Shown here: piece by piece, positions 20,681 to 56,350 of the stretch
How positions within the stretch are numbered: the stretch's first letter is position 1
How the letters are laid out: each line of letters begins with the position of its first letter
Assembly: GCF_017352155.2 (NCBI RefSeq)
Contig: NZ_CP084320.1
Location: forward strand, 62,001-126,000
Reading direction: 5' to 3'
DNA: 64,000 bases
From: Haloterrigena alkaliphila
GTDB taxonomy: Archaea; Halobacteriota; Halobacteria; Halobacteriales; Natrialbaceae
The notes under the pieces: generated by a model
The model's database searches: none
What the model saw: the letters and a program-made list of their open reading frames with translations, nothing else
Told to the model about the DNA's origin: nothing
Program-made: the position numbers and the translations under genes

Positions 20681-21916
20681 TTACAGATAGTCGTTCTTAT
20701 CCGCTGTTGTTTGTATAGAGTTAGCTACTTCTTTGAAGCGAGTTGTTGATGTGAGGATATCGAGAACAGATTTTAACGGAACGTCGAGTTCATATTCGTG
20801 ATATCGGCCAGCAGAAAGTCCTTCGTTTCGTTCATAGACCGTGATGAGACCGAGCATATTCATATCGGACAGGTGATCACGGATTCGGCGTTCGCTGACA
20901 CTATCCGCATCGAGTCGATCACAGAGCGACACATAGCGGTTGTAGAGTTGGCGAGAACGAACTGGTACCTCGTTGTCGGCTTGATGCGATGCCAGCGCAC
21001 AGAGGACAGCATGTCCCTGCGTCGTCAGCTCCTGCATTCCCTCGTAGAGTTGATTTTTCTCTAGTTCGTTCTGTGCATCACGGACATGATCTCCAGTCAC
21101 TGCTTCAGCGTTCGCTGCTTGTGCAAGCTCGCCCGCTTCTCGAAGCAGTCGGATAGCTTGCCGGGCCGATCCCGTATCTTGTGCCGCGAATGCAGCGGAT
21201 AGCGGAACAACATCGTCCTCGAGTACGCCCTCGTAAAACGCTTTCTCAGCACGTGGTTTCAGGATCGATCGAAGCTGGTTCGCATCGTACGGTGGGAAGA
21301 GAATCTCTTTTTCCGCTAGTGTATCTTTCACTTTTGGTGAAAGGGAATCTCGGAACTGAAAGTCATTACTGATACCGATAACGACTGGCCGGACATCTTC
21401 TACATAGCCATTCGACTGGGCGCGAGGTAATCCATACAAAATATCATCAGAACGGCCGATATTATCGATTTCGTCGAGAACGATTACGACGGTACCGCCT
21501 AATGCGTCTAACTCCTCGTAAAGAAGTTCGAAAACTCGTTGCTGAGAGTAACCAGTTGTACTGATACGTTCTTCCTCCTGTTGCTGACGGAGTTCATTGA
21601 CGAGTGCAACGGCAACTTGATACGAGGTGGAAAGGTTTTCACAGCCGACCCAGACGGTAGAGAGGTTGACATCGTCGTACTCAGCGACATCGACTTCTAA
21701 GTGAGAAAGCAAAAACTTCGTTGCGACGGTCTTACCCGTTCCTGTCTTTCCGTAGAGAAAAATATTCGATGTGGGTCGATTATCGATAATCGGTTGCAGT
21801 GCTCGTTTGTATTTTTCGAGCACCTCGTCTCGTTCACGGATATCGTCAGGTTCGTATGAGTCATCGAGCGGATCAGCATTAGCGAATACTTGCTGATCCC
21901 GCTGGAATATGCCCAT
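20681..21916 (-). CDS. Orc1/Cdc6 family replication initiator (origin A)
   Basis: The 411-residue AAA+ initiator has Walker A GKTGTGKT at 56-63, Walker B VVIVLDEIDNIG near 150, an ISNDFQFRDSL sensor region and the initiator-specific PPYDANQL motif. The C-terminal winged helix (about 320-400) should bind origin boxes. The ATG at 21916 is preferred to an in-frame TTG at 21925, because a TATA box lies 25-30 bases before it. Base composition is clearly richer in A/T than that of its neighbours, unlike the second Orc here. Its own box family lies on both sides. It is probably a late-acquired origin module; identity as Orc1/Cdc6 is secure. Confidence 0.93.
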   Translation of the reverse strand: MGIFQRDQQVFANADPLDDSYEPDDIRERDEVLEKYKRALQPIIDNRPTSNIFLYGKTGTGKTVATKFLLSHLEVDVAEYDDVNLSTVWVGCENLSTSYQVAVALVNELRQQQEEERISTTGYSQQRVFELLYEELDALGGTVVIVLDEIDNIGRSDDILYGLPRAQSNGYVEDVRPVVIGISNDFQFRDSLSPKVKDTLAEKEILFPPYDANQLRSILKPRAEKAFYEGVLEDDVVPLSAAFAAQDTGSARQAIRLLREAGELAQAANAEAVTGDHVRDAQNELEKNQLYEGMQELTTQGHAVLCALASHQADNEVPVRSRQLYNRYVSLCDRLDADSVSERRIRDHLSDMNMLGLITVYERNEGLSAGRYHEYELDVPLKSVLDILTSTTRFKEVANSIQTTADKNDYL

Positions 21917-21937
21917 GATAAACAACCAACATTATGA

Positions 21938-35149: not shown

Positions 35150-36355
35150 TCAGCCGTCGTCCGTCTCGACCAGCACCTTGCGAACGACGTCGGGATCCTC
35201 GAGCAACTGGTGATCGGTGTAACTCCCCTCGGCGCTGCCGCCGCTCTGGCGGGATTGCTCGATGATGTCGAGGAACGCGTGTTCCTTCAGGAGGTCCCGA
35301 ACCCGGCGCAGGGAGAGGGTATCGGAGCCCTCCTGGCGGCAGATCTCCTCGTAGACGTCGAAGATTTTGGTCGTGCGGAACCCGTCCTCGTCGGGGGTGT
35401 TGAGCGAGAGGACCGCGAGGGCCTGCAGGACGTACCGGGAGTGGGGCGTCGAACCGCGAATGAGTTCCCGGAACCGATCGGTCTCGGCCCGTTCGCGGGC
35501 CTGGACGACGAACTCCTCGCGAACCGTCTCGCTCCCGTTGGACTGGGCGATCTCGCCCGCGTACCGGAGGATGTCGATCGCCTTTCGGGCGTCGCCGTGT
35601 TCCCGGGCCGCGAGGGCTGCAGCGCGGGGGATGACGGAGGGCTCGAGGACGCCGTCCTTGAACGCGTCGCTGCGGGCCTGCATGATGTCCCGCAGCTGGT
35701 TGGCGTCGTACGGCGGGAAGACGAACTCCCGCTCGCAGAGGCTGGACTTGACCCGCTCGTCCATCCGATCCTTGTACTTGATCTTGTTGCTGATCCCGAT
35801 GACGCCGATCTTGCACGACTCGAGTTTGCCGGCCTCGCCCGCGCGCGAGAGTTGCATGAGGATGTCGTCGTCGTCGAGTTTGTCGACCTCGTCTAAGATG
35901 ATGAGGACGACCTCGTACTGCGAATCCAGCACCGTCCAGAGGCGCTTGTAGTACGTCGACGTGCTGAGCCCCTTGTCGGGGATCTTGATGTCGGTGCGGT
36001 CGGAGTCGTTCAGCGAGTGGGCGATCGTCTGAACCGCCTGCGTCTCCGTGCTGTCCTGTGCGCAGTCGACGTAGGCGAACTCCGCGGTGACGCCTTCCTC
36101 CGTCGCGACGCGAACCAGGCGTTCGGAGATGTGTTTCGCACAGAGGGATTTGCCCGTTCCCGTCTTCCCGTAGATGAGCAGATTGCTCGGGCTCTGCCCG
36201 AAAATAGCCGGATTGACGGCGTTAGCGAGGTCCGCGATCTCGTCGTCCCGGCCGACGATGCGTCCCTCCTCGGGGAGATGATTGATCTCGAGGAGTTCCT
36301 TGTTCTCGAAGATCGGATCGTCACGGGTGAAGAGGTCGTCGCCGGAACTCGACAT
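35150..36355 (-). CDS. Orc1/Cdc6 family replication initiator (origin B)
   Basis: The 401-residue AAA+ initiator has Walker A GKTGTGKS at 63-70, Walker B VVLIILDEVDKL near 158, the sensor segment IGISNKIKYKDRM, the Orc-specific FPPYDANQLRDIM near 215 and a C-terminal winged helix (about 310-400). The ATG at 36355 is preferred to an upstream GTG at 36370, because box O3 sits across the earlier codons. Its GC content matches the neighbouring chromosome, unlike orc1/cdc6-A. Box O3 between the upstream promoter area and the start suggests autoregulation. Identity is secure. Confidence 0.96.
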   Translation of the reverse strand: MSSSGDDLFTRDDPIFENKELLEINHLPEEGRIVGRDDEIADLANAVNPAIFGQSPSNLLIYGKTGTGKSLCAKHISERLVRVATEEGVTAEFAYVDCAQDSTETQAVQTIAHSLNDSDRTDIKIPDKGLSTSTYYKRLWTVLDSQYEVVLIILDEVDKLDDDDILMQLSRAGEAGKLESCKIGVIGISNKIKYKDRMDERVKSSLCEREFVFPPYDANQLRDIMQARSDAFKDGVLEPSVIPRAAALAAREHGDARKAIDILRYAGEIAQSNGSETVREEFVVQARERAETDRFRELIRGSTPHSRYVLQALAVLSLNTPDEDGFRTTKIFDVYEEICRQEGSDTLSLRRVRDLLKEHAFLDIIEQSRQSGGSAEGSYTDHQLLEDPDVVRKVLVETDDG

Positions 36356-36362
36356 GATCGTA

Positions 36363-36383
36363 GACACCACGTTTCCGGTGAAT
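36363..36383 (+). repeat. Origin B recognition box O3, overlapping the orc promoter region
   Basis: ACACCACGTTTCCGGTGAA begins about 8 bases upstream of the orc1/cdc6-B ATG, where initiator binding could shut off its own gene. Confidence 0.82.
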
Positions 36384-36502
36384 CGTCTTTACTGTTTGGA
36401 CTCGTCGACGAGGAGTTCGTCACAGCGGACAATTTCGGGAGAACGAGCGGCTATGGAGGTAATATATAGTTCTAGGGGAAGCGGTGACTGGGTCGGAGCG
36501 CG

Positions 36503-36524
36503 CACACACCGGGTTTCCGGTGAA
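36503..36524 (+). repeat. Origin B recognition box O4
   Basis: CACACACCGGGTTTCCGGTG followed by AA, then a G-run (ATGGGGTGAGCGGGGGAGG). Confidence 0.85.
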
Positions 36525-36568
36525 ATGGGGTGAGCGGGGGAGGGGGTCCAGTTGAAGTGGTGGTTTTG

Positions 36569-36590
36569 GTTCATCGGAAATTCGGTGTGC
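36569..36590 (-). repeat. Origin B recognition box O5, inverted
   Basis: The plus strand reads TTCATCGGAAATTCGGTGTG, a variant box facing O4. Confidence 0.72.
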
Positions 36591-36884
36591 CCGAGCGGCG
36601 CGTGCGGGAAAAGAGAGAAACGGTCAGTTCAGTAGACCGGGAGAGCGGACACTCTACACGCATTTCCCGCGGGTTTCGCGGTCTCGAGACATAGTAGATC
36701 GCGACGATGGCAGCAGATGATTTGGAGAGAAGGCTCGAGTTCGATACTCGAAGGAGACTGGGCTGAGAGACTACGACCTCGAAATAGTCGATTCCGGAAC
36801 GAGATGCCTCGATAGTCCTGTTAGTTTGAATATCGGCGACGGAGAATACCGCTAATTTCCAGTGAAAGAGTCGGCGTCGACTCA

Positions 36885-36990
36885 CGTCGACTAACTATCT
36901 TCGTTTTCCACTCAATGGACTTTTTACTCTCTAGCTTAATATATTTATTGTTGCTGGCTGGTGGAGTACCCATTGATCTAGTATCGTAGA
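36885..36990. other. AT-rich candidate DNA-unwinding element of origin B
   Basis: This stretch includes TTCCACTCAATGGACTTTTT and TAGCTTAATATATTTATTG. It is the most AT-rich part of the origin and lies between the facing box clusters. Confidence 0.65.
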
Positions 36991-37133
36991 GCACTGGCAC
37001 AGGGTGAAGCCAACCAGAAATCGGTTTGGGCTTCCTTTTGTCCTCTACGCCTTTCACCTCCTTCTACTACTATCTCGATCCCTCGCTTCGTCGTTCTCTC
37101 CTCCCCTTTGGCCCCTCTTCTCTTGATCACCGT

Positions 37134-37155
37134 TTCACCGGAAACCTGGTGTGTG
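37134..37155 (-). repeat. Origin B recognition box O6, inverted
   Basis: The plus strand reads TTCACCGGAAACCTGGTGTG. Confidence 0.85.
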
Positions 37156-37237
37156 CGTCTTGTCGTGTTGCTCTCGTCACGACACGTTGATACTACACCG
37201 TACCCCCGACGAGGCCGTCCCCCCTCTCGGTCACCGT

Positions 37238-37259
37238 TTCACCGGAAACCCGGTGTGTG
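37238..37259 (-). repeat. Origin B recognition box O7, inverted
   Basis: The plus strand reads TTCACCGGAAACCCGGTGTG, the exact reverse complement of box O4. Confidence 0.85.
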
Positions 37260-37301
37260 CGCGCGGGTGATAGCGACACCGGTTGCCGACGACAGAACTG
37301 A

Positions 37302-37323
37302 TTCACCGGAAACGTGGTGTGTC
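37302..37323 (-). repeat. Origin B recognition box O8, inverted
   Basis: The plus strand reads TTCACCGGAAACGTGGTGTG, the reverse complement of the O3 type. Confidence 0.85.
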
Positions 37324-37568
37324 CGTCCGTTCACCGTGGTATCAGTGATTCCTCCCGGTAATCGGCAACACCTAGCGCGGATCTTCTCAGTGCCCGCCCC
37401 TTGCGACTGATTGCGTCTCGAGAACCGGCGCGACTAATTGCGTCTCGAGACCCAGCGGCTGACTCGGCGGATTGCGGGTCAGTTTGTGGAATGCGCACGG
37501 GCTGGTTTGTGGAAGCTGCCAACGATGGTGTAATATATTCGATCCGTCCTCGGACACCGGTGATCCTG

Positions 37569-37590
37569 TTCACCGGAAACATGGTGTGCG
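37569..37590 (-). repeat. Origin B recognition box O9, inverted
   Basis: The plus strand reads TTCACCGGAAACATGGTGTG. Confidence 0.83.
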
Positions 37591-37612
37591 AGACGTATCC
37601 GTTTCGACGGCT

Positions 37613-37634
37613 TTTACCGGAAACGTGGTGTGTG
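37613..37634 (-). repeat. Origin B recognition box O10, inverted
   Basis: The plus strand reads TTTACCGGAAACGTGGTGTG. It is the outermost right-hand box, 23 bases from O9. Confidence 0.82.
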
Positions 37635-37798
37635 CGCGTCCTGTTATTCATTCGCTCGCGACTATTTCTCGAGTACCGTGCTTTCGGAGTTCCGTCGTCG
37701 ACTCCCGTCACGGATCGTGCGACTCTGCTCGGACTCGATAGGAGAGGAACACTCTAGCGAGACCGAGACAGACGCCGGCTCAGTAGTGTCGCACGGAC

Positions 37799-38299: not shown

Positions 38300-39409
38300 C
38301 TAGACCGTGAACGAGACGTCCTCGAAGTCGAAAAACGCCGTCTCGTAGCCATCGTGTCGCGCCACTTGCGGGGGTAAGTCGACGGCGATCGTTATCTCGG
38401 CCCCGGACTCGAGGCCGTCGATGCCGGTCCCGTAGTGGTGGCCGAAGGCGTGATCGAGGGATTCCGTCAGCGGTTCGTCCTCGAGAACGGTCGCGTCGTC
38501 GCGTTCGACCGTGACGCTCAGCGACGCGAAGGGGAGGCTCACGTCGTTGTAGGGAGTTCGCGGACAGACGACGAGATAGGCGCCGTCCCCGGCCAATCGA
38601 TCGGCGTCCGTCGCGATCGCCGAAATCTTCGCGTCGCCGCTCCGCTCGGTTCCGATTCGATCGCCGGGGAGGTCTTCGATCGGCGGCCCGTCGGACGTGG
38701 GCGGGTGACCGGGTCCGTGATCGCCGCCGCTCGCATCCTCGTGATCGTCCCCAGCACCGTGTTCCATCAACGAGAGCGCCTCGGGATCGCCGCGTCGGTT
38801 CTCGTCGATCAGGTCGAACTCGAGGTCGTGGATGTCCGATCGCTCGAACTCGAAGTCGACCTCGAGGGTGGACGCACCCGTCCAGTTGGCGAACGCGCCG
38901 GTTCCACGAACCTCGAGCGCGCCGACCCGGACGCGGGCCGTGTACGCGCCTTCCTCGGGCAGGCTGACGTTGTCGCCGTAGTGGAACCCCATCCGCTGGG
39001 AGAGCATCGGCCACGGCGACAGCTGGCCGCCGACCGACTCGCCGTCCCGGAGCAACTCGAGTCCCACGTTCACCGGAAGGACGGTGTCCGTCTCCGCGTC
39101 CCAGACGGTGGCCATGAGGTGCATGCTGTCGTCCGTCTCGACGTCGACGCGTTCCGTTTCGCCGGCGACGGTCCAGAACCGGTGGGGGATCGTGTAGGAG
39201 AGCGCGACGGCGAGCGAACCGTCGCTCGCGCCGCCGTAGCTGCCCATCTCCTCCATTCCGGCGGGGAGGTAGACGGCGTCGGGGCGGTCCTCGACCAGCG
39301 GCGGGTTCGACCAGGCGGACTCCTCCTCGAAGCCGAGGCGCTCGAGACAGCCGGCGACGGCCAGCGCTCCGGTTCCGGCCGTTCCACCGAGAAAGGCCCG
39401 ACGATTCAT
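38300..39409 (-). CDS. P19/Tp34-like metal-binding lipoprotein
   Basis: The 369-residue protein has a Tat-like RRAFLGGTAG start and a lipobox AVAGC at Cys21. Residues about 30-185 match P19/Tp34 periplasmic iron/copper-binding proteins in order: AGMEEMGSYGG, DDSMHLMATVWDAETDTVLP, PMLSQRMGFHYGDNVSLPEE, YTARVRVG. The Met/His pair positions fit the family's copper and iron site. A His/Asp/Gly-rich linker (about 215-250) and a second beta domain (about 275-369) follow. It is probably involved in metal uptake or delivery on the cell surface. It may be co-transcribed with the membrane protein upstream on the same strand. Confidence 0.78.
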   Translation of the reverse strand: MNRRAFLGGTAGTGALAVAGCLERLGFEEESAWSNPPLVEDRPDAVYLPAGMEEMGSYGGASDGSLAVALSYTIPHRFWTVAGETERVDVETDDSMHLMATVWDAETDTVLPVNVGLELLRDGESVGGQLSPWPMLSQRMGFHYGDNVSLPEEGAYTARVRVGALEVRGTGAFANWTGASTLEVDFEFERSDIHDLEFDLIDENRRGDPEALSLMEHGAGDDHEDASGGDHGPGHPPTSDGPPIEDLPGDRIGTERSGDAKISAIATDADRLAGDGAYLVVCPRTPYNDVSLPFASLSVTVERDDATVLEDEPLTESLDHAFGHHYGTGIDGLESGAEITIAVDLPPQVARHDGYETAFFDFEDVSFTV

Positions 39410-39548
39410 TGGTTTCGTCTTGGGTTGCCAGCAGCAAAACGGCTGTTGGTTTGCCGGTCGAAAGCGCGGCGGCGCGATCCAAATCGGATCGAGCGCCGCT
39501 CATCGCCTGACGGCCGCTGTCGGTCCATCGGCTGAGGGCCGCTGTCGA

Positions 39549-41147
39549 TTACCCGCCGACGTACACCGGGCCCGGCGCCGGCAGCGTCAGGAGCCACAGA
39601 CTGACGACCGTGTAGCAGACCATCACGACGACGAACGGGTACTGGCTCCGGATCGCCTGCAGCCGTCCCGGGAAACAGTCGAAGGCCGTCGCGTGAGCCG
39701 TCCAGATCGCGAGGACGTGACCCGCGAGCACGGCTCCGATCTCGACGATCCCGACCCAGTCGGGGAGGGCGAGCGTGGTCGGATTGACCGGCGGCGCGAA
39801 CGGACTCGAGAGGGCCGCGAGCGCGGCCGGGGAGACCGAGATCGCGAACGCGAGGTAGTGGGCGACGTGGTAGCCCGCGGCGATCGCCAGCAGCGGCGGG
39901 GCGAACCGCCGGGCGAGTTCCCGTTCGGCGAGGTACGTCGGTGCGGTGCGCCGCGCGAGGCGGGCGGCGAGCCAGTACAGTCCGAGGGACAGTCCGAACC
40001 CGCTCGAGAGCACCAGCAGGTACGCCAGCGCCGCCGGAACGCCGGTCGAAACCACCGCCTCGATCGTTCGCCGGCCCGGTGGGGTGACGACGAACCCGTT
40101 GAACGTCAACTCCCAGACCAGCAGGAGGACGAACGCGACTTCGCTGGCATCGGCGACGACGCCGCGATCACGGAGTCGAGCGCCCGGGAGGACGAGTCGA
40201 AATCCGCCGCCCTCCCGTTGACCACCGTCCTCTTGCTGACCACCATTCACCCGCTGGATCGGTGCGACGGATCCGTAGAGGCGGAAGAGCACGGCCAGCG
40301 GATCCGCGCGTCGAAACCACGTCTCGGGCGAGAACACCACCGCGCCGGTGACGGTCGCGACGGCGTAGCCGCCGGCGACGAGCGCGAGGGTACCGGGGTC
40401 AGCCGTTACGGGCAGGACGATCTCGAGCCAGACCAAGAGGCCGAGACCGACGACCGCCGGCCACGACCGCAGGCGCGACGGATACGCGAGCAAACCGCCG
40501 TCGCCGCTCCCTCTGACGACGCCGCCCACGCCGCGCGCGAGGGTTCGAAACGGATCGATGGCGGGCCAGGGATCGACGAGCAGGACGGCGACCATCGGGC
40601 CCAGCGCCCGCAGGCCCACGAACGCGAGGATGACCCCGAGGTTCGCGATTCCCGTCGCCGGCCCCTCGAGACCGACAGCGACGACGGCCGCGAGGGCGAG
40701 AAGTCCGAGGAGCGATCCAAGCGCGGAGCCGACGGCGAGCGTCCGACGCGAAGCGACGAGCGGTCGAGTCGCCGTCGCGGCTCGAGTTGACGGTCGTTCC
40801 GACCGTTCCGACGCACCGGCACGCGTGCGCGAGTAGTCGTTCGCCGTCTCGACTTTGTTCGCCGTCCCGACTTCCGTCGTCACGAGCGGAACCCTCCACT
40901 CGTGAATCGCGTCGACGAGCGATCGATCGGTCACGAGCGCGGCCAGTATCGCGGACGCGGCGACGGCCGTGGCGCCGGTGAGCAGGGTGAGCCACGTCGG
41001 CACCGTGAGGTCGCGGTCCTCGCCGAGTCCGGCGGCGACGTTCGACGCGCTCGCGGCGTCCGTCCAGATCACCGCGCCGATAGCGACCGCTACGAGACCC
41101 CACGCGATCACGCGCCGCCGCCGCCGAGTCGATGGAACCGCTGTCAC
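39549..41147 (-). CDS. Polytopic membrane protein, partner of the P19-like lipoprotein
   Basis: About 532 residues and roughly 11-12 membrane helices (for example VIAWGLVAVAIGAVIW, WPAVVGLGLLVWLEIVLPV, VAFVLLLVWELTFNGFVV). Conserved-looking motifs include FSPETWFRRADPLAVLFRLY, YHVAHYLAF and AGHVLAIWTAHATAFDCFPG with RSQYPFVVVMVCYTVVSLWL near the end. The latter resemble actinobacterial membrane proteins often given the doubtful name fenitrothion hydrolase. The GTG at 41147 is my preferred start; the frame is open to 41291 but that piece is implausible. Intramembrane His residues suggest metal or heme handling. It is not FTR1: no REGLE-type motif. Confidence 0.65.
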   Translation of the reverse strand: MTAVPSTRRRRRVIAWGLVAVAIGAVIWTDAASASNVAAGLGEDRDLTVPTWLTLLTGATAVAASAILAALVTDRSLVDAIHEWRVPLVTTEVGTANKVETANDYSRTRAGASERSERPSTRAATATRPLVASRRTLAVGSALGSLLGLLALAAVVAVGLEGPATGIANLGVILAFVGLRALGPMVAVLLVDPWPAIDPFRTLARGVGGVVRGSGDGGLLAYPSRLRSWPAVVGLGLLVWLEIVLPVTADPGTLALVAGGYAVATVTGAVVFSPETWFRRADPLAVLFRLYGSVAPIQRVNGGQQEDGGQREGGGFRLVLPGARLRDRGVVADASEVAFVLLLVWELTFNGFVVTPPGRRTIEAVVSTGVPAALAYLLVLSSGFGLSLGLYWLAARLARRTAPTYLAERELARRFAPPLLAIAAGYHVAHYLAFAISVSPAALAALSSPFAPPVNPTTLALPDWVGIVEIGAVLAGHVLAIWTAHATAFDCFPGRLQAIRSQYPFVVVMVCYTVVSLWLLTLPAPGPVYVGG

Positions 41148-41318
41148 CGCCCGGGTACACCACGCCGATTCACATGTATCCCGCTCTCGCTCACAGTGGC
41201 CGAAGACGGCTATCCCGCTCGTGCTCGCAGTCGTCGACGGAAGTCGCAGTCGTCGATGGAACTGATATTCGGCGCATGAACCAACGGACATTTGATTACC
41301 CGCTCCGACGATTCGGGT

Positions 41319-42164
41319 ATGGAACGGCGGACGTATCTTCGCTCGCTCGGGGTCGCGGGTCTCGCTGGTGTCGCCGGCTGTCTCGAGAGTCTGGGGGGGC
41401 TGGGCGGCGATAGCCAGACGGTGTTGTCACAGCCCGACGATTACATTCCGGGTGCCTCGTATCCCGTCCACGGCGACGAGTTTCCGTCCTTCTCCGTCCC
41501 CGACCCGATCGCGGAGACGACCGTCTCGCTCGAGGATTTCGTCGGCGAACGCCCCTTCCTGATCACGTACTTCTTCACGACGTGTCCAGACGGAGTCTGC
41601 CCGGCCCTGCTGTTACGTCTGCGGTGGGTCCAGGAGGACGCCGCCGAGCGCGGCTACGAGGACGATATCGGACTGCTCGGCTTCACGTTCGATCCGGAAC
41701 GGGATACGCCCGACGTGCTGTCGGAGTACGCCGCCGAGCGCGGGATCGACTACGAGGCGGACAACTGGCACTTCCTCCGACCCGAAACTTACGACGAGGC
41801 GGAGACAATGACGGTCGACACGTTCGGTATTCCACTCCTCCGGTGCGACGACGAGGAGGAGGACTGCAAGACCGGGGACGAGAGCGGCGAGACGGGAGCC
41901 GACGACGGAGAGACGGATACCGACGGTAACGCGACCGAACGTCACGACGAACAGAACGGAACCGACGATCACGAGGAGCAGAACGGAACCGAGAGCGGCG
42001 GCCACGATCACGGCGAGTACACCTTCACGCATCCCGCGATAATCACGCTCGTCAACGAGGACGGCATCGTCGAACGCGCGTACCCGAAAGCGGTCCAGAC
42101 CAAACGGGCCGTCGGTCGGGACCGGATCCTCGAGGACACGCGCGCCGTCGTCGGGGTGGAGTGA
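41319..42164 (+). CDS. SCO1/SenC-type copper chaperone lipoprotein
   Basis: The 281-residue protein has a Tat-like ERRTYLRSLG start, a lipobox at Cys21 and a thioredoxin fold. Its cysteine motif is TTCPDGVCP, with Cys89 and Cys94, one residue longer than the usual CxxxC of SCO1. The expected distal His is in YTFTHPAIITLVNEDG near residue 230. Before it lies a His/Asp/Asn-rich insert (about 185-225, with HDEQ, DDHEEQ, GGHDHGE). It probably delivers copper to cytochrome oxidase or reduces its cysteines, outside the membrane. It is first of a SCO-TlpA-CcdA operon divergent from the P19 pair. Confidence 0.88.
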   Translation: MERRTYLRSLGVAGLAGVAGCLESLGGLGGDSQTVLSQPDDYIPGASYPVHGDEFPSFSVPDPIAETTVSLEDFVGERPFLITYFFTTCPDGVCPALLLRLRWVQEDAAERGYEDDIGLLGFTFDPERDTPDVLSEYAAERGIDYEADNWHFLRPETYDEAETMTVDTFGIPLLRCDDEEEDCKTGDESGETGADDGETDTDGNATERHDEQNGTDDHEEQNGTESGGHDHGEYTFTHPAIITLVNEDGIVERAYPKAVQTKRAVGRDRILEDTRAVVGVE

Positions 42165-42166
42165 GC

Positions 42167-42745
42167 ATGCGGCGACGGGACGTCCTCGCCGGGCTCGGCG
42201 GCGCGGGCGTGGTCGCCGGCGGCGGTGCGGTCGCGGTGTACGGACTGCCGTCGCCGGGGCGCTTCCTCGACGAGGAGACGGACGAACCGCCCGAGCCGAT
42301 CGAGATCGAGACGATCGAGGCCCCCGGGAGCGAGGCCGGGACGGTGGCGATCCCCGACCGCGGCCGGGCGACGTTCCTCGACCTCTTCGGGACGTGGTGC
42401 GGGCCGTGTATCGAACAGATGCCGGCCCTCGCCGAGGCCAACGAGCGGATCGGCGACGAGGTCCAGTTCTGCTCGGTCACGAACGAGTCGGTCGGCCCGA
42501 ACGGGTCGATCACGAAAGCGGAACTCGTCGACTGGTGGGAGAAACACGGCGGCAACTGGACGGTCGGACACGACCCCGCGGCCGAACTCACGTCGCGATA
42601 CCTCGAGGGCGGGTTTCCCACGGCCGTCGCCGTCGACGCCACTGGACGCGTTCAGTGGGCCGAATCGGGGATCAAGACCGCGGACGAACTGGTCGACGGA
42701 ATCGAGCGGGCCCTCGAGGCCGGCGACTCCGGCTCGGGCGAATGA
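42167..42745 (+). CDS. TlpA/ResA-type membrane-anchored thioredoxin
   Basis: The 192-residue protein has a Tat-like signal or anchor (RRRDVLAGLGG then GVVAGGGAVAVYG) and a thioredoxin fold with the active site WCGPC, Trp77-Cys81, after DLFGT. GGFPTAVAVDATGRV holds the cis-Pro. An in-frame GTG at 42161 overlaps the SCO1 stop (GTGA) and may be the true start. It likely keeps cysteines of a metal- or heme-binding protein reduced on the outer face, fed by CcdA, whose gene overlaps its stop. Confidence 0.88.
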   Translation: MRRRDVLAGLGGAGVVAGGGAVAVYGLPSPGRFLDEETDEPPEPIEIETIEAPGSEAGTVAIPDRGRATFLDLFGTWCGPCIEQMPALAEANERIGDEVQFCSVTNESVGPNGSITKAELVDWWEKHGGNWTVGHDPAAELTSRYLEGGFPTAVAVDATGRVQWAESGIKTADELVDGIERALEAGDSGSGE

Positions 42746-43416
42746 TCGACGCGGCTCTGGTTCCGACGCTCGCGTTCGCGCTGACCGCCGGCGTCGCGAC
42801 GTTCTTCTCGCCGTGTGCCTTTCCGCTCCTCCCGGGGTACGTCGGATTCTACGTGAGCCAGACTGAGGGCGAGGAGGCCTCGCTCTCCGGGTCTATCGGT
42901 CGCGGGATCGTCGCCGGTATCGGCGTCCTCGCCATCTTCAGCGCGTTGCTGGTGGCGGCCTACTGGATCGGGCACGCGACGCTGTCCAACATCGTCTACT
43001 TCGAGCCGATCGCCGGCGCGGTGCTGGTCGCATTCGGTGCGCTGATCGTGCTCGGCCGCGCGCCCTCGCTGTCGATCGCGCTGCCGAAACGCCGCTCGAG
43101 CGTCCTCGGGTTCGCGGTCTTCGGCGGCGGCTACGCCCTGGCTGCGGCGGGCTGTGTCGCACCGCTGTTCGTCGGCGTCGTCGCGCAGGCGCTCTCCCTG
43201 CCGCCGGTGTCCGCGGCGCTGGTCGTCGGTACCTACGTCGGCAGCATCGTGGTGCTGATGGTCTCGCTGACCGTCGCGACGGGCATGGGACTGCTCGCGG
43301 GGGCCGGCCGGCTGGCTGCCCACACCCAGACCCTCGAACGCCTCGCGGGCGCGGTAATGATCCTCGCCGGCGTCGGTCAGTTGTACCTCGCGATCGTCAT
43401 TCTCGACGTGCTCTGA
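42742..43416 (+). CDS. ccdA: CcdA-type transmembrane thiol-reductant transporter
   Basis: The 224-residue protein has six likely membrane helices and the conserved Cys/Pro pairs of CcdA: FFSPCAFPLLPGY with Cys25, and AAAGCVAPLF with Cys near 136. It passes electrons from cytoplasmic thioredoxin across the membrane to TlpA/SCO-like proteins. Its ATG overlaps the tlpA stop (ATGA), so the two are translationally coupled. It ends the operon. Confidence 0.92.
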   Translation: MIDAALVPTLAFALTAGVATFFSPCAFPLLPGYVGFYVSQTEGEEASLSGSIGRGIVAGIGVLAIFSALLVAAYWIGHATLSNIVYFEPIAGAVLVAFGALIVLGRAPSLSIALPKRRSSVLGFAVFGGGYALAAAGCVAPLFVGVVAQALSLPPVSAALVVGTYVGSIVVLMVSLTVATGMGLLAGAGRLAAHTQTLERLAGAVMILAGVGQLYLAIVILDVL

Positions 43417-43914: not shown

Positions 43915-44895
43915 TTAGCCGCGCTGTCGGAGACCGACGAGCGTCACGGCCGCCAGCGCGACGATGACGGCGGGACCGCCGAACCCGGGCATCTCGTCGT
44001 TGTCGCTCGTCTCGTTTTCGGTGACCGAGTCGATCTCGTTCTCGTCGTTCGTGTCGTTCTCGGTGCTGTTCGTGTCGTTTTCGTCGTTGTTCGCTCCGCT
44101 ATCGTCGATCGGCTCGCCGTCGGCGCCCGTCACGTCGCTATCGAGCTGGATGACGACGATGACCTGTCCGTGGGAGGCGTTCGGCCTGTAGGTCCAGCCG
44201 CCGCCGGCTTCCTCGTAGGGCTCGGCGGCTTCGACCGGGTCGATGTCGGTCTCCCACGTGTCGTGGGCCTTCTGGATGTAGCCGACGACCTCGAGCTTGT
44301 CGGCGTGCTCGCCCTCGATTCGGGCCTCGCCGTACTCGATGGTCGCGTCCTCGGGGTGGCCGTGCATCTCGATGGTGTGGGCGTCCATGTAGCCGTCGCC
44401 CTGGGGCAGGTCGTCGGTGGTGCCGAACTGATCGCCGTCGAGGGGTCGCTCGTAGTGTTCGGTCAGCGGGAGCTGAACGGTCAGCGGGTCGGCGTGGGAG
44501 TGCCACGAGGTCGTCTCGCCGGTCGGAATCGTGACGGTCGTGTTCGGGACCGTTTTCCCGACGATCGGCTCGCCCGCCTCGTTGAGCAGCGTCACGCCGA
44601 TCTTCCCGGAGCCGTCGCCGAGGTACGGCGACCGGTACTCGTCGCGCGGGTTGATGTAACTGACCCACTCGCCGTTACTGGCCTCGTAGTACGGATCGCC
44701 CTCTTCGGGCGCCGGCTTGACGTACGCCTCCTCACTGACGTTCTTCTCCGTTCCGTCGTTCGGATCGGCGAGACTGGCCTGCGTGGTCCCGGAATCGGAC
44801 GTCGCGGCGCCGAGTCCGACGACGCCGACCAGTCCGATCAGCGCCAGCACGAGCAGGCCCGCGGTGACGGAGCCGCGTTTACGCCCGCTGCTCAT
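43915..44895 (-). CDS. PGF-CTERM-anchored surface protein, His-rich core
   Basis: The 326-residue protein starts at the ATG at 44895, giving the signal MSSGRKRGSVTAGLLVLALI. It ends with the archaeosortase A signal: acidic Asn/Glu/Asp linker (about 265-300), the PGF motif in MPGFGGPAV, a hydrophobic helix and LRQRG. The folded middle (about 50-250) holds WHSHADPLTVQLPLTEHYER and MDAHTIEMHGHPEDATIEYG, with several His that could bind metal. It should be processed at PGF and lipid-linked to the cell surface. Function unknown. Confidence 0.83.
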   Translation of the reverse strand: MSSGRKRGSVTAGLLVLALIGLVGVVGLGAATSDSGTTQASLADPNDGTEKNVSEEAYVKPAPEEGDPYYEASNGEWVSYINPRDEYRSPYLGDGSGKIGVTLLNEAGEPIVGKTVPNTTVTIPTGETTSWHSHADPLTVQLPLTEHYERPLDGDQFGTTDDLPQGDGYMDAHTIEMHGHPEDATIEYGEARIEGEHADKLEVVGYIQKAHDTWETDIDPVEAAEPYEEAGGGWTYRPNASHGQVIVVIQLDSDVTGADGEPIDDSGANNDENDTNSTENDTNDENEIDSVTENETSDNDEMPGFGGPAVIVALAAVTLVGLRQRG

Positions 44896-45332
44896 TTCGC
44901 TTCCTCCGTCGTTGCGTTCGGGCGGCGGGTCGCTCGGGATCGCCCGTCGCGTTCGACCCGTCGCGGTCTCGATCGGTATCCTGTCATCGAGCCGACCTTC
45001 GACATTCACCGTTCTTTATATGAGCAGCATTACTGGTCTATATCGACCGGCTACGCCAGGTAGACACCCGTTTCCACTCGATCAGCACCGAATGCCATCG
45101 TCGCCGCTGCGATGATTAGAACTCGAGAAATTCACCGATAGAATACAATCATCTACAGCTATCAGATTCGAACGTCCCGGTAATCGGTCGCTTACGCGGT
45201 TGACGGCGGCCGTCGGCGTCCCGAATCGAGACCGACGGGCCGCACTGACGGCCGTTCGGTGGCGGCCCGGGGTGAACCGCGCTTGCGCTGGCACGCCGAA
45301 CCCACTTCCGGGGCGGGAATCTACGCACGTCG
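44896..45332. other. Intergenic region with minus-strand promoter
   Basis: No gene is supported. A minus-strand TATA-like CATATAAAG at about 45014-45022 may serve the PGF-CTERM gene; the implied leader is about 95 bases. Another AT-richer part lies near 45110-45170. Confidence 0.5.
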
Positions 45333-54653: not shown

Positions 54654-55604
54654 CTACGCGGGTTGCTGGTCGATCGCCTCGAGTTGCTCCCGGTACCGGT
54701 TCCGAACCGTCACCACGGTCGTCTGTGCGGTGTCGGCGACGGCCCGCTGGGGGATCGTCTCGTCGCAGAGCAGGCCGGCGGCGTAGATGGCCGCGGCGGC
54801 GAACCCGGTCGGCGACTTGCCCGAGTGCAGCCCCTGCTCGGTCGTGCGATCGATGATGTCGATGGCCTTCGTCTCGACGTCCTTGTCCACGTCGAGTTCC
54901 GAACAGAACCGCGGGACGAACTGCCGCGGGTTCGTCGGCTCGAGGTTGATGTCGAGTTCGTCGGCGATGTAGCGGTAGGTGCGGCCGATCTCGCGCTGAT
55001 CGACCCGCGACACGGACGTCACCTCCTCGAGGCTGCGCGGAATGTCCTCCTTTCGGCAGGCCGTGTACAGCGCGCTGGTCGCGACGCCCTCGATCGAGCG
55101 CCCCCGGATGAGGTCCTGGTCGAGGGCCTGTCGGTAGATGACGCTCGCGGTCTCCTTGACGGGTTTCGGAACCCCGAGCGCGCTCACCATGCGGTCGATC
55201 TCCGAGAGCGCGTACTTGAGGTTGCGTTCGCCGGCGTTTTTGGTCCGGATTCGCTCCTGCCAGACGCGGAGCCGGTGGAGCTGGCCGTGCTTCTCGGCGG
55301 ACATCGAGTGGCCGTTGGCGTCCTTGTTCCGCCAGTCGATGGTCGTGGTCAGCCCGCGGTCGTGCATCGACTGGGTGAGCGGCGCCCCCACGCGGGAGAG
55401 TTCGTCGTGTTCCTGGGCGTTGAACGCTCGCCACTCCGGCCCGTAATCGATGGGATCCTCGGTTAAGACCAGCCCACACTCCTCGCAGACGCGTTCACCG
55501 CGGTCCGGATCGTGGATGATCGTGTCGGTTTCGCAGTCCGGACACAGCCCGGGCTCTGTCTCCTGTGTCTCGTTCGTGGTGTGATCGATGATGGACCGCG
55601 TCAT
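54654..55604 (-). CDS. tfb: Transcription initiation factor IIB (TFB)
   Basis: The 316-residue protein has an N-terminal zinc ribbon with Cys21, Cys24, Cys40 and Cys43, then the B-reader-type segment DYGPEWRAFNAQEHDELSRV. Two cyclin repeats (about 115-205 and 210-305) bind TBP and the BRE. The ATG at 55604 is preferred over a longer leader. Haloarchaea carry several TFBs that pair with TBPs to direct different promoters; this is one paralogue and which subset it serves is unknown. It is followed by the small acidic gene in the opposite direction. Confidence 0.95.
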   Translation of the reverse strand: MTRSIIDHTTNETQETEPGLCPDCETDTIIHDPDRGERVCEECGLVLTEDPIDYGPEWRAFNAQEHDELSRVGAPLTQSMHDRGLTTTIDWRNKDANGHSMSAEKHGQLHRLRVWQERIRTKNAGERNLKYALSEIDRMVSALGVPKPVKETASVIYRQALDQDLIRGRSIEGVATSALYTACRKEDIPRSLEEVTSVSRVDQREIGRTYRYIADELDINLEPTNPRQFVPRFCSELDVDKDVETKAIDIIDRTTEQGLHSGKSPTGFAAAAIYAAGLLCDETIPQRAVADTAQTTVVTVRNRYREQLEAIDQQPA

Positions 55605-56350
55605 CAGTAGTGGACAACGCTGTGCCGGCACTGTAAGGGGTTCACATGGTTTCGCGAGAAACGCCGACTTACTGCCCGAATCGCGGATCCAGCAGCGAAC
55701 GGAGAAAGAATCGGCACGTCGTCGCCGCGTCCGATTCGGAGCGGCCGACCGAGCCGTGTCGGAACCGTGTCCCATCGGTTCGTCGGGACGAAGCGCCGCG
55801 GTACCGGCGTTCTCGCCCTATACTGGGTATCGTGAACACGGCACATGAAATGTCCTCATCGTTTCGTTTCCGATCCAACGTAAATGACGGCTTCATCGCG
55901 TAAATTCGGCTTTCCGAATCGAACTGTCGTTCGCCTTTATCTCGTTGGCAGCAAACGTTCCGTAGCAGTGTCGTGTTTCAGATTCGCTCCCCGACTTGGC
56001 TGGACTCTCTCCCGGACCGATAGCGGACGTACGCGGCCGATACGACATCGCAATCGGTCGATACCATCAGCGCCGCTTCGATTCCACAACCGATCGTCTA
56101 GATGCCATCGTATTCCGCCGTCAACGCCGTCGAGAAGTCGTTCCATACCCGCTTTGCAGCCGGTGCGAAACGTGGCTGTCCTTAAGAGTGTCACTATTGG
56201 TGTACAACTTGGTGTGTCAATCGTGACTGCGACTTGCCGATCGAGCAAACAGCGGTTCCCGCCGACTCGACCGTTTGGCAGCCGTTTCGAGTTGAGTAAC
56301 TGGTATCGAACGAGCTGGAACCCTCGCCCACCGTTCGGAGGTCGAGCCTG
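55605..56350. other. Long intergenic region between tfb and the DUF7344 gene
   Basis: About 750 bases that should carry the divergent promoters of tfb and the next gene. I see no gene with a sensible product; the open frames are Arg/Ser-rich shadows. No strong repeat is evident. Confidence 0.5.

Follow-up and report, generated by a model that had tools for sequence, protein, structure and literature searches.

Bacterial P19 proteins have a copper site that adjoins an acidic patch of Glu3, Glu44, Asp46, and Asp92 holding an iron analogue (PMC9174327). In the assembly of the CuA site, Sco, TlpA, and PCuAC work jointly; CcdA moves reducing equivalents across the membrane and TlpA reduces the cysteines of Sco and of the CuA site (PMC9145763, PMC7558416). 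According to the literature, PCuAC is exclusively bacterial and Cox17 is absent from prokaryotes, and the papers that we found do not describe how copper arrives at archaeal Sco and CuA sites.

We analyzed a 64,000-nucleotide stretch (the window) of a 161.7-kb replicon (contig C3) from the 4.27-Mb genome of Haloterrigena alkaliphila; it shows synteny with the Haloterrigena turkmenica plasmid pHTUR04. It contains a lipoprotein gene, here P19-A, whose product currently carries the annotation "iron transporter," a gene for a membrane protein (MEM), and, on the opposite strand, a trio of genes for SCO, TlpA, and CcdA.

Layout of the locus and its proteins

A preliminary description of this DNA had proposed a divergent locus of five genes, with a tight SCO–TlpA–CcdA operon on the opposite strand behind a gap of about 170 bases. 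Open reading frames and Pfam searches bore out both the genes and their places: MEM and SCO are separated by 171 bp, and CcdA overlaps TlpA by 4 nt. The features are as follows:

38300–39409, minus strand: P19-A, a Tat lipoprotein of 369 aa (open reading frame, Pfam, AlphaFold, and Foldseek/VIA)
38306–38677, minus strand: DUF7350 domain of P19-A, residues 245–368 (PF24041, 2.3e-49; Ig-like model)
38825–39259, minus strand: P19-fold domain of P19-A, residues 51–195 (conservation in 47/47 homologues and alignment with bacterial proteins)
39437–39462, minus strand: shared promoter element at P19-A, TTCG-N5-CAAACCAACAGCCGTTT, 27 nt before the ATG
39549–41147, minus strand: MEM, a polytopic membrane protein with a GTG start and without a Pfam family
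41268–41293, plus strand: shared promoter element at SCO, TTCG-N5-TGAACCAACGGACATTT, 25 nt before the ATG
41319–42164, plus strand: SCO family lipoprotein with an ATG start, CPDGVC, and a His/Asp/Glu-rich insert
42167–42745, plus strand: TlpA/ResA-type thiol-disulfide oxidoreductase with CGPC
42742–43416, plus strand: CcdA, 224 aa, with SPCAFP and GCVAP motifs

An Rfam search gave no match. The surroundings include a replication-origin-like region (36359–37636), where five direct and at least two inverted TTCACCGGAAACNTGGTGTGTGCG repeats flank an AT-rich stretch at about 36930–36950, adjoining an Orc1/Cdc6 gene (35150–36370). A second Orc1/Cdc6 gene (20681–21925) lies in a GC-poor stretch of the same window (51% GC). 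Next to CcdA, a PGF-CTERM surface protein (43915–45009) is encoded, as it is in Haloterrigena and Natronorubrum relatives.

The N terminus of P19-A carries a Tat signal and lipobox (MNRRAFLGG...AGC). Its Pfam match to Iron_transport (PF10634) reached 21.4 bits, barely above the cut-off of 21, while its profile matched FtrA at 3.6e-8. In the AlphaFold model (pLDDT 88), the first domain is a P19 fold: all leading VIA matches belonged to the P19 family (FetP, P19, Tp34, and FtrA; Z 12–13), and the next family scored 9.5. The earlier assignment as a Tp34/P19-type lipoprotein thus stands for the fold and is refined by the additional DUF7350 domain. The latter was modelled as an Ig-like beta sandwich and was rejected as a second P19 domain, its fold matches being generically Ig-like. 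The His-rich linker is largely limited to P19-A, with a median of four His against none in the paralogues.

SCO matched SCO1-SenC (PF02630) at 2.8e-14 and Bacillus Sco1 at 5e-9. Its CPDGVC motif is a CX4C, one residue longer than the CX3C of Bacillus Sco1, and the copper site may thereby be altered; no CX3C was found in the protein. FTHPAIITL contains a candidate distal copper His, and the C-terminal half could not be aligned to known Sco proteins. Most SCO proteins of haloarchaeal trios have CX4C (CPDGxC) in place of CX3C, the latter occurring in a few trios lacking P19 (L140, L141, L143, L148, and L149) and also at the P19-linked loci L007 and L059. We rejected CX4C as an indicator of linkage to P19, since trios without P19 have it as well. 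TlpA has a membrane-targeted thioredoxin fold with CGPC, supported by a Redoxin match (3e-9) and by matches to ResA structures. CcdA, a short transmembrane protein of DsbD type, itself had no match in Pfam, DsbD_TM being reached below threshold and in relatives only; a profile of its family matched Thermus CcdA (5vkv) at E 3e-4, both Cys–Pro motifs are present, and its homologues are annotated as CcdA.

The predicted metal site of P19-A

For comparison, we took four rhizobial and azospirilla P19 proteins, three of them encoded in intact FtrABCD loci alongside cupredoxin, FTR1, and 4Fe-4S genes and the fourth from a locus in which the FTR1 gene is set apart by a transposase gene. P19-A was aligned with them by hhalign profile comparison (E 3e-9) and by MAFFT. 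The two methods concurred in aligning the bacterial HLEADI with HLMATV of P19-A, and they set PMVASDGPHYGDN opposite PMLSQRMGFHYGDN; in the profile alignment, the bacterial PMVASDGPHYG came to lie opposite PMLSQRMGFHYG of P19-A. The copper-site residues His42, Met88, and His95 of P19 are kept in P19-A as H97, M135, and H143, and these three, together with M99 and M140, are invariant in all 47 aligned homologues, as are M55 and H76 of the same domain. The acidic iron/manganese patch was not found: Glu44 is replaced by M99, Asp92 by M140 or the neighboring R139 (nonacidic either way), and the position of Asp46 holds Thr, Ser, Val, or Ile and is never acidic among the 47 homologues, while Glu3 had no confident alignment. 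When the phylum was searched with PF10634 for archaeal members of the family bearing the canonical acidic patch, matches came from haloarchaea only. As judged from the alignments, the residues of P19-A are those that one would expect at a soft-metal, copper-type site and not at the bacterial iron site.

We propose that P19-A may act as an extracytoplasmic copper-handling accessory of the SCO–TlpA–CcdA relay, a reading that we consider to have about an even chance of being right; copper binding, transfer to SCO, and a client enzyme are the parts that we infer. CcdA would draw electrons from thiols in the cytoplasm and deliver them across the membrane to TlpA, which would reduce SCO and the CuA-site cysteines of the client. 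On the outer face, P19-A would capture or buffer copper with H97, M99, M135, M140, H143, and the His-rich linker, and would hand it to SCO, the role played by PCuAC in bacteria. P19-A had no match to PF04314 (PCuAC), and neither did any of 61 Natrialbaceae genomes in a search whose controls worked. The reading draws on the divergent linkage and the private promoter element described below, the one-sided dependence of P19-A on the trio, the P19 fold, the Met residues at acidic positions, the His-rich linker, and the absence of FTR1 and PCuAC. Against donation of copper count His132 of P19, which has no equivalent in the alignment of P19-A, the CX4C motif of SCO, the many trios without P19-A, and the presence of the Met-for-acid change in paralogous P19-B proteins as well.

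The P19 fold and the existing annotation would suit iron uptake as well, with P19-A binding ferrous or ferric iron as in Campylobacter and TlpA–CcdA reducing iron for a permease, possibly MEM. The thioredoxin-like genes of bacterial P19 clusters, correctly named in the preliminary description (PMC6083913, PMC10783030), also suit it, as does the placement of paralogous P19-B genes beside a DyP-like protein, which recalls EfeB. However, a search of the whole genome for the FTR1 permease (PF03239), which is present at the rhizobial and azospirilla loci, found none (control positive in 4/14), MEM is missing from about two-thirds of the loci, the acidic patch is replaced in 47/47 homologues, and SCO is a copper family. 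We therefore regard iron uptake as improbable and do not uphold the earlier idea of a haloarchaeal counterpart of the P19 iron-uptake system.

Defense against copper stress is similarly doubtful. Here, P19-A would trap excess copper outside the membrane, and the thiol relay would repair or re-reduce cysteines oxidized under copper or oxidative stress. The His/Met site and His-rich linker, the presence of the Helicobacter pylori copper-resistance protein CrdA among the next fold matches of P19-A (Z 8.4), and the metal P-type ATPases adjoining P19-B genes on plasmids are all consistent with such a function. Nevertheless, the locus is without a copper-type efflux pump or a known copper regulator, and the trio is often the sole CcdA set of a genome, which points to housekeeping. 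Only one CcdA was detected in each of 26 of 51 genomes with P19-A, so the trio is likely a general thiol-reducing module and not dedicated to P19-A; in the H. alkaliphila genome, the CcdA of the window is the sole close copy.

The paralogous P19-B proteins share the Met-for-acid change and are encoded beside MEM, a DyP-like DUF7405 protein, and, on some plasmids, a P-type ATPase. As they have the same change next to other partners, the Met site does not single out the proteins paired with SCO. The P19-B neighborhood was dropped as proof of copper handling because the plasmid ATPases are of Zn/Cd type (EMDCPSC, CPC, and GDAGM), not of CopA type. A closely similar block, consisting of DUF7405, two P19-B genes, MEM, a DUF7410-type small membrane protein, the Zn/Cd-type ATPase, and a CDF-like gene, is found at loci L044, L046, L049–L053, L066, and L067 of different haloarchaeal genera, and its similarity across genera suggests that a metal-related island has recently spread by horizontal transfer.

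Linkage and a shared promoter element

Using tblastn, we compared the window proteins with 80 related loci and found that throughout Natrialbaceae the trio runs divergently from P19, on chromosomes as well as plasmids. Among 101 sampled Natrialbaceae genomes, P19-A, defined as a close orthologue with roughly at least 57% identity, was present in 51 genomes of 14 genera. CcdA lies at most 7 kb from P19-A in 50 of these 51, which share ancestry and so do not represent 50 independent events, and is divergent in all 50; the exception, G014, has P19-A alone. The arrangement is far beyond chance, and the claim that the two halves belong together, checked by their co-occurrence in relatives, is strengthened accordingly. 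The trio is more faithfully kept beside P19-A than any other neighbor, Orc1/Cdc6 being near in 17 of 30 loci.

The dependence is one-sided. We found 51 further CcdA copies (at least 59% identity) without a P19-A neighbor, several of the trios lacking P19-A sharing the same trehalose-gene neighborhood. Since the trio persists where P19-A is missing, it is P19-A that depends on the trio, whereas the trio does not depend on P19-A. The absence of P19-A beside many trios in several lineages indicates that it is dispensable or accessory. At locus L146 (5690–6091), a frame of 134 aa, 40% identical to P19-A, lies between Orc1/Cdc6 and an intact trio; it is possibly a decayed P19-A, and the SCO promoter element is still there.

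MEM, which the preliminary description had included in the unit, did not prove essential. It lies between P19 and the trio in 7 of 30 loci, and the P19–CcdA distances in the 101-genome sample imply MEM or another insert in about one-third. As roughly one locus in three has it, MEM is an accessory outside the conserved core and was rejected as a core component. It has no shared promoter element of its own; in the window, it sits between the two promoters and P19-A retains its own. The AlphaFold model of MEM is mostly helical, and Foldseek against the PDB gave no match at E≤0.001, whether to a known transporter or otherwise.

P19-A and SCO are preceded by the same element, TTCG-N5-YRAACCAAY-RRVSV-TTT, oriented toward either gene, and both copies at the H. 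alkaliphila locus fit TTCG-N5-CGAACCAAC. Its TTT lies 25 nt before the SCO start and 26–27 nt before the P19 start; 18 or more of the 21 consensus positions are present in 30 of 31 loci at SCO and in 22 of 32 at P19. We take this position to be that of BRE plus TATA in a leaderless haloarchaeal promoter. The 4.27-Mb genome contains the core AACCAAYRRVSVTTT in perfect form exactly twice, once at the P19-A promoter and once at the SCO promoter. Across the 101 genomes, we counted 106 copies of the element, 27 at P19-A, 60 at SCO (41 linked to P19-A and 19 in trios without it), and 19 elsewhere. The pattern was built from these promoters and the recovery of 87 of the 106 copies there is expected; the result is the lack of excess elsewhere, the 19 off-locus copies comparing with 21 for a reversed-pattern control. 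A general promoter motif was rejected on the same grounds. In many single loci, the similarity between the two elements is not significant alone, and we base the case for a shared element on its position, its conservation, and its exclusivity across the genome.

The element is the trio's own and is also carried by P19-A. Independent regulation of the halves, named in the preliminary description as counting against a joint unit, appears unlikely because P19-A and SCO have one and the same private element at their promoters. That P19-A and the trio are neighbors only, a pair maintained through inheritance close to a replication origin and through a duplicated promoter, with no joint biochemistry, would suit the common ancestry of the genomes and the Orc1/Cdc6 gene often adjoining the block, yet it is very unlikely given that the trio is kept in 50/51, in contrast to the variable flanks (Orc1 among them) and the intermittent MEM, and that the element is kept at both promoters on chromosomes and plasmids alike. 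We consider the coupling of the two halves nearly certain. The same replicon encodes a TFB (TFIIB) paralogue (54654–55775), and as the BRE position falls within the element, the latter might be read by a TFB that is selective in its promoters. A locus-specific promoter element offers a clean handle toward the regulator.

Returning to the copper-handling reading, we advance more tentatively, at somewhat below even chances, the wider proposal that haloarchaea have no PCuAC and employ a Met-remodelled P19-fold lipoprotein as copper donor of the SCO–TlpA–CcdA relay, with a near-exclusive promoter element controlling the pair.

Comparison with known systems

With EfeUOB, the DyP-linked iron-uptake system, the likeness lies in the P19-B paralogues beside the Tat DyP-like DUF7405 protein, whereas the P19-A locus is without EfeU, EfeO, and EfeB. 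The ResA/CcdA module is resembled by TlpA, which matches ResA structures, and by the CcdA profile, which matches Thermus CcdA, but here the module is joined to SCO and P19-A and the operon is without ResB and ResC. Campylobacter P19, Escherichia coli FetP, Brucella and Rubrivivax FtrA, and Treponema Tp34 share with P19-A the fold, the HYGDN signature, and His42/Met88/His95, and the Campylobacter P19 cluster has thioredoxin-like genes, as found beside P19-A. Unlike them, P19-A has the extra DUF7350 and Met in place of Glu44 and Asp92 (the latter perhaps replaced by the adjacent residue), and its locus lacks FTR1 permease, cupredoxin, and ABC partners. If P19-A is a donor, the label "iron transporter," in wide use for its family in haloarchaea, is wrong. 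Bacterial CuA assembly by PCuAC, Sco, and TlpA follows the same scheme, in which a His/Met protein outside the cytoplasm is linked with Sco, TlpA, and an electron donor of CcdA type, although P19-A and PCuAC are nonhomologous by Pfam and SCO has CX4C here.
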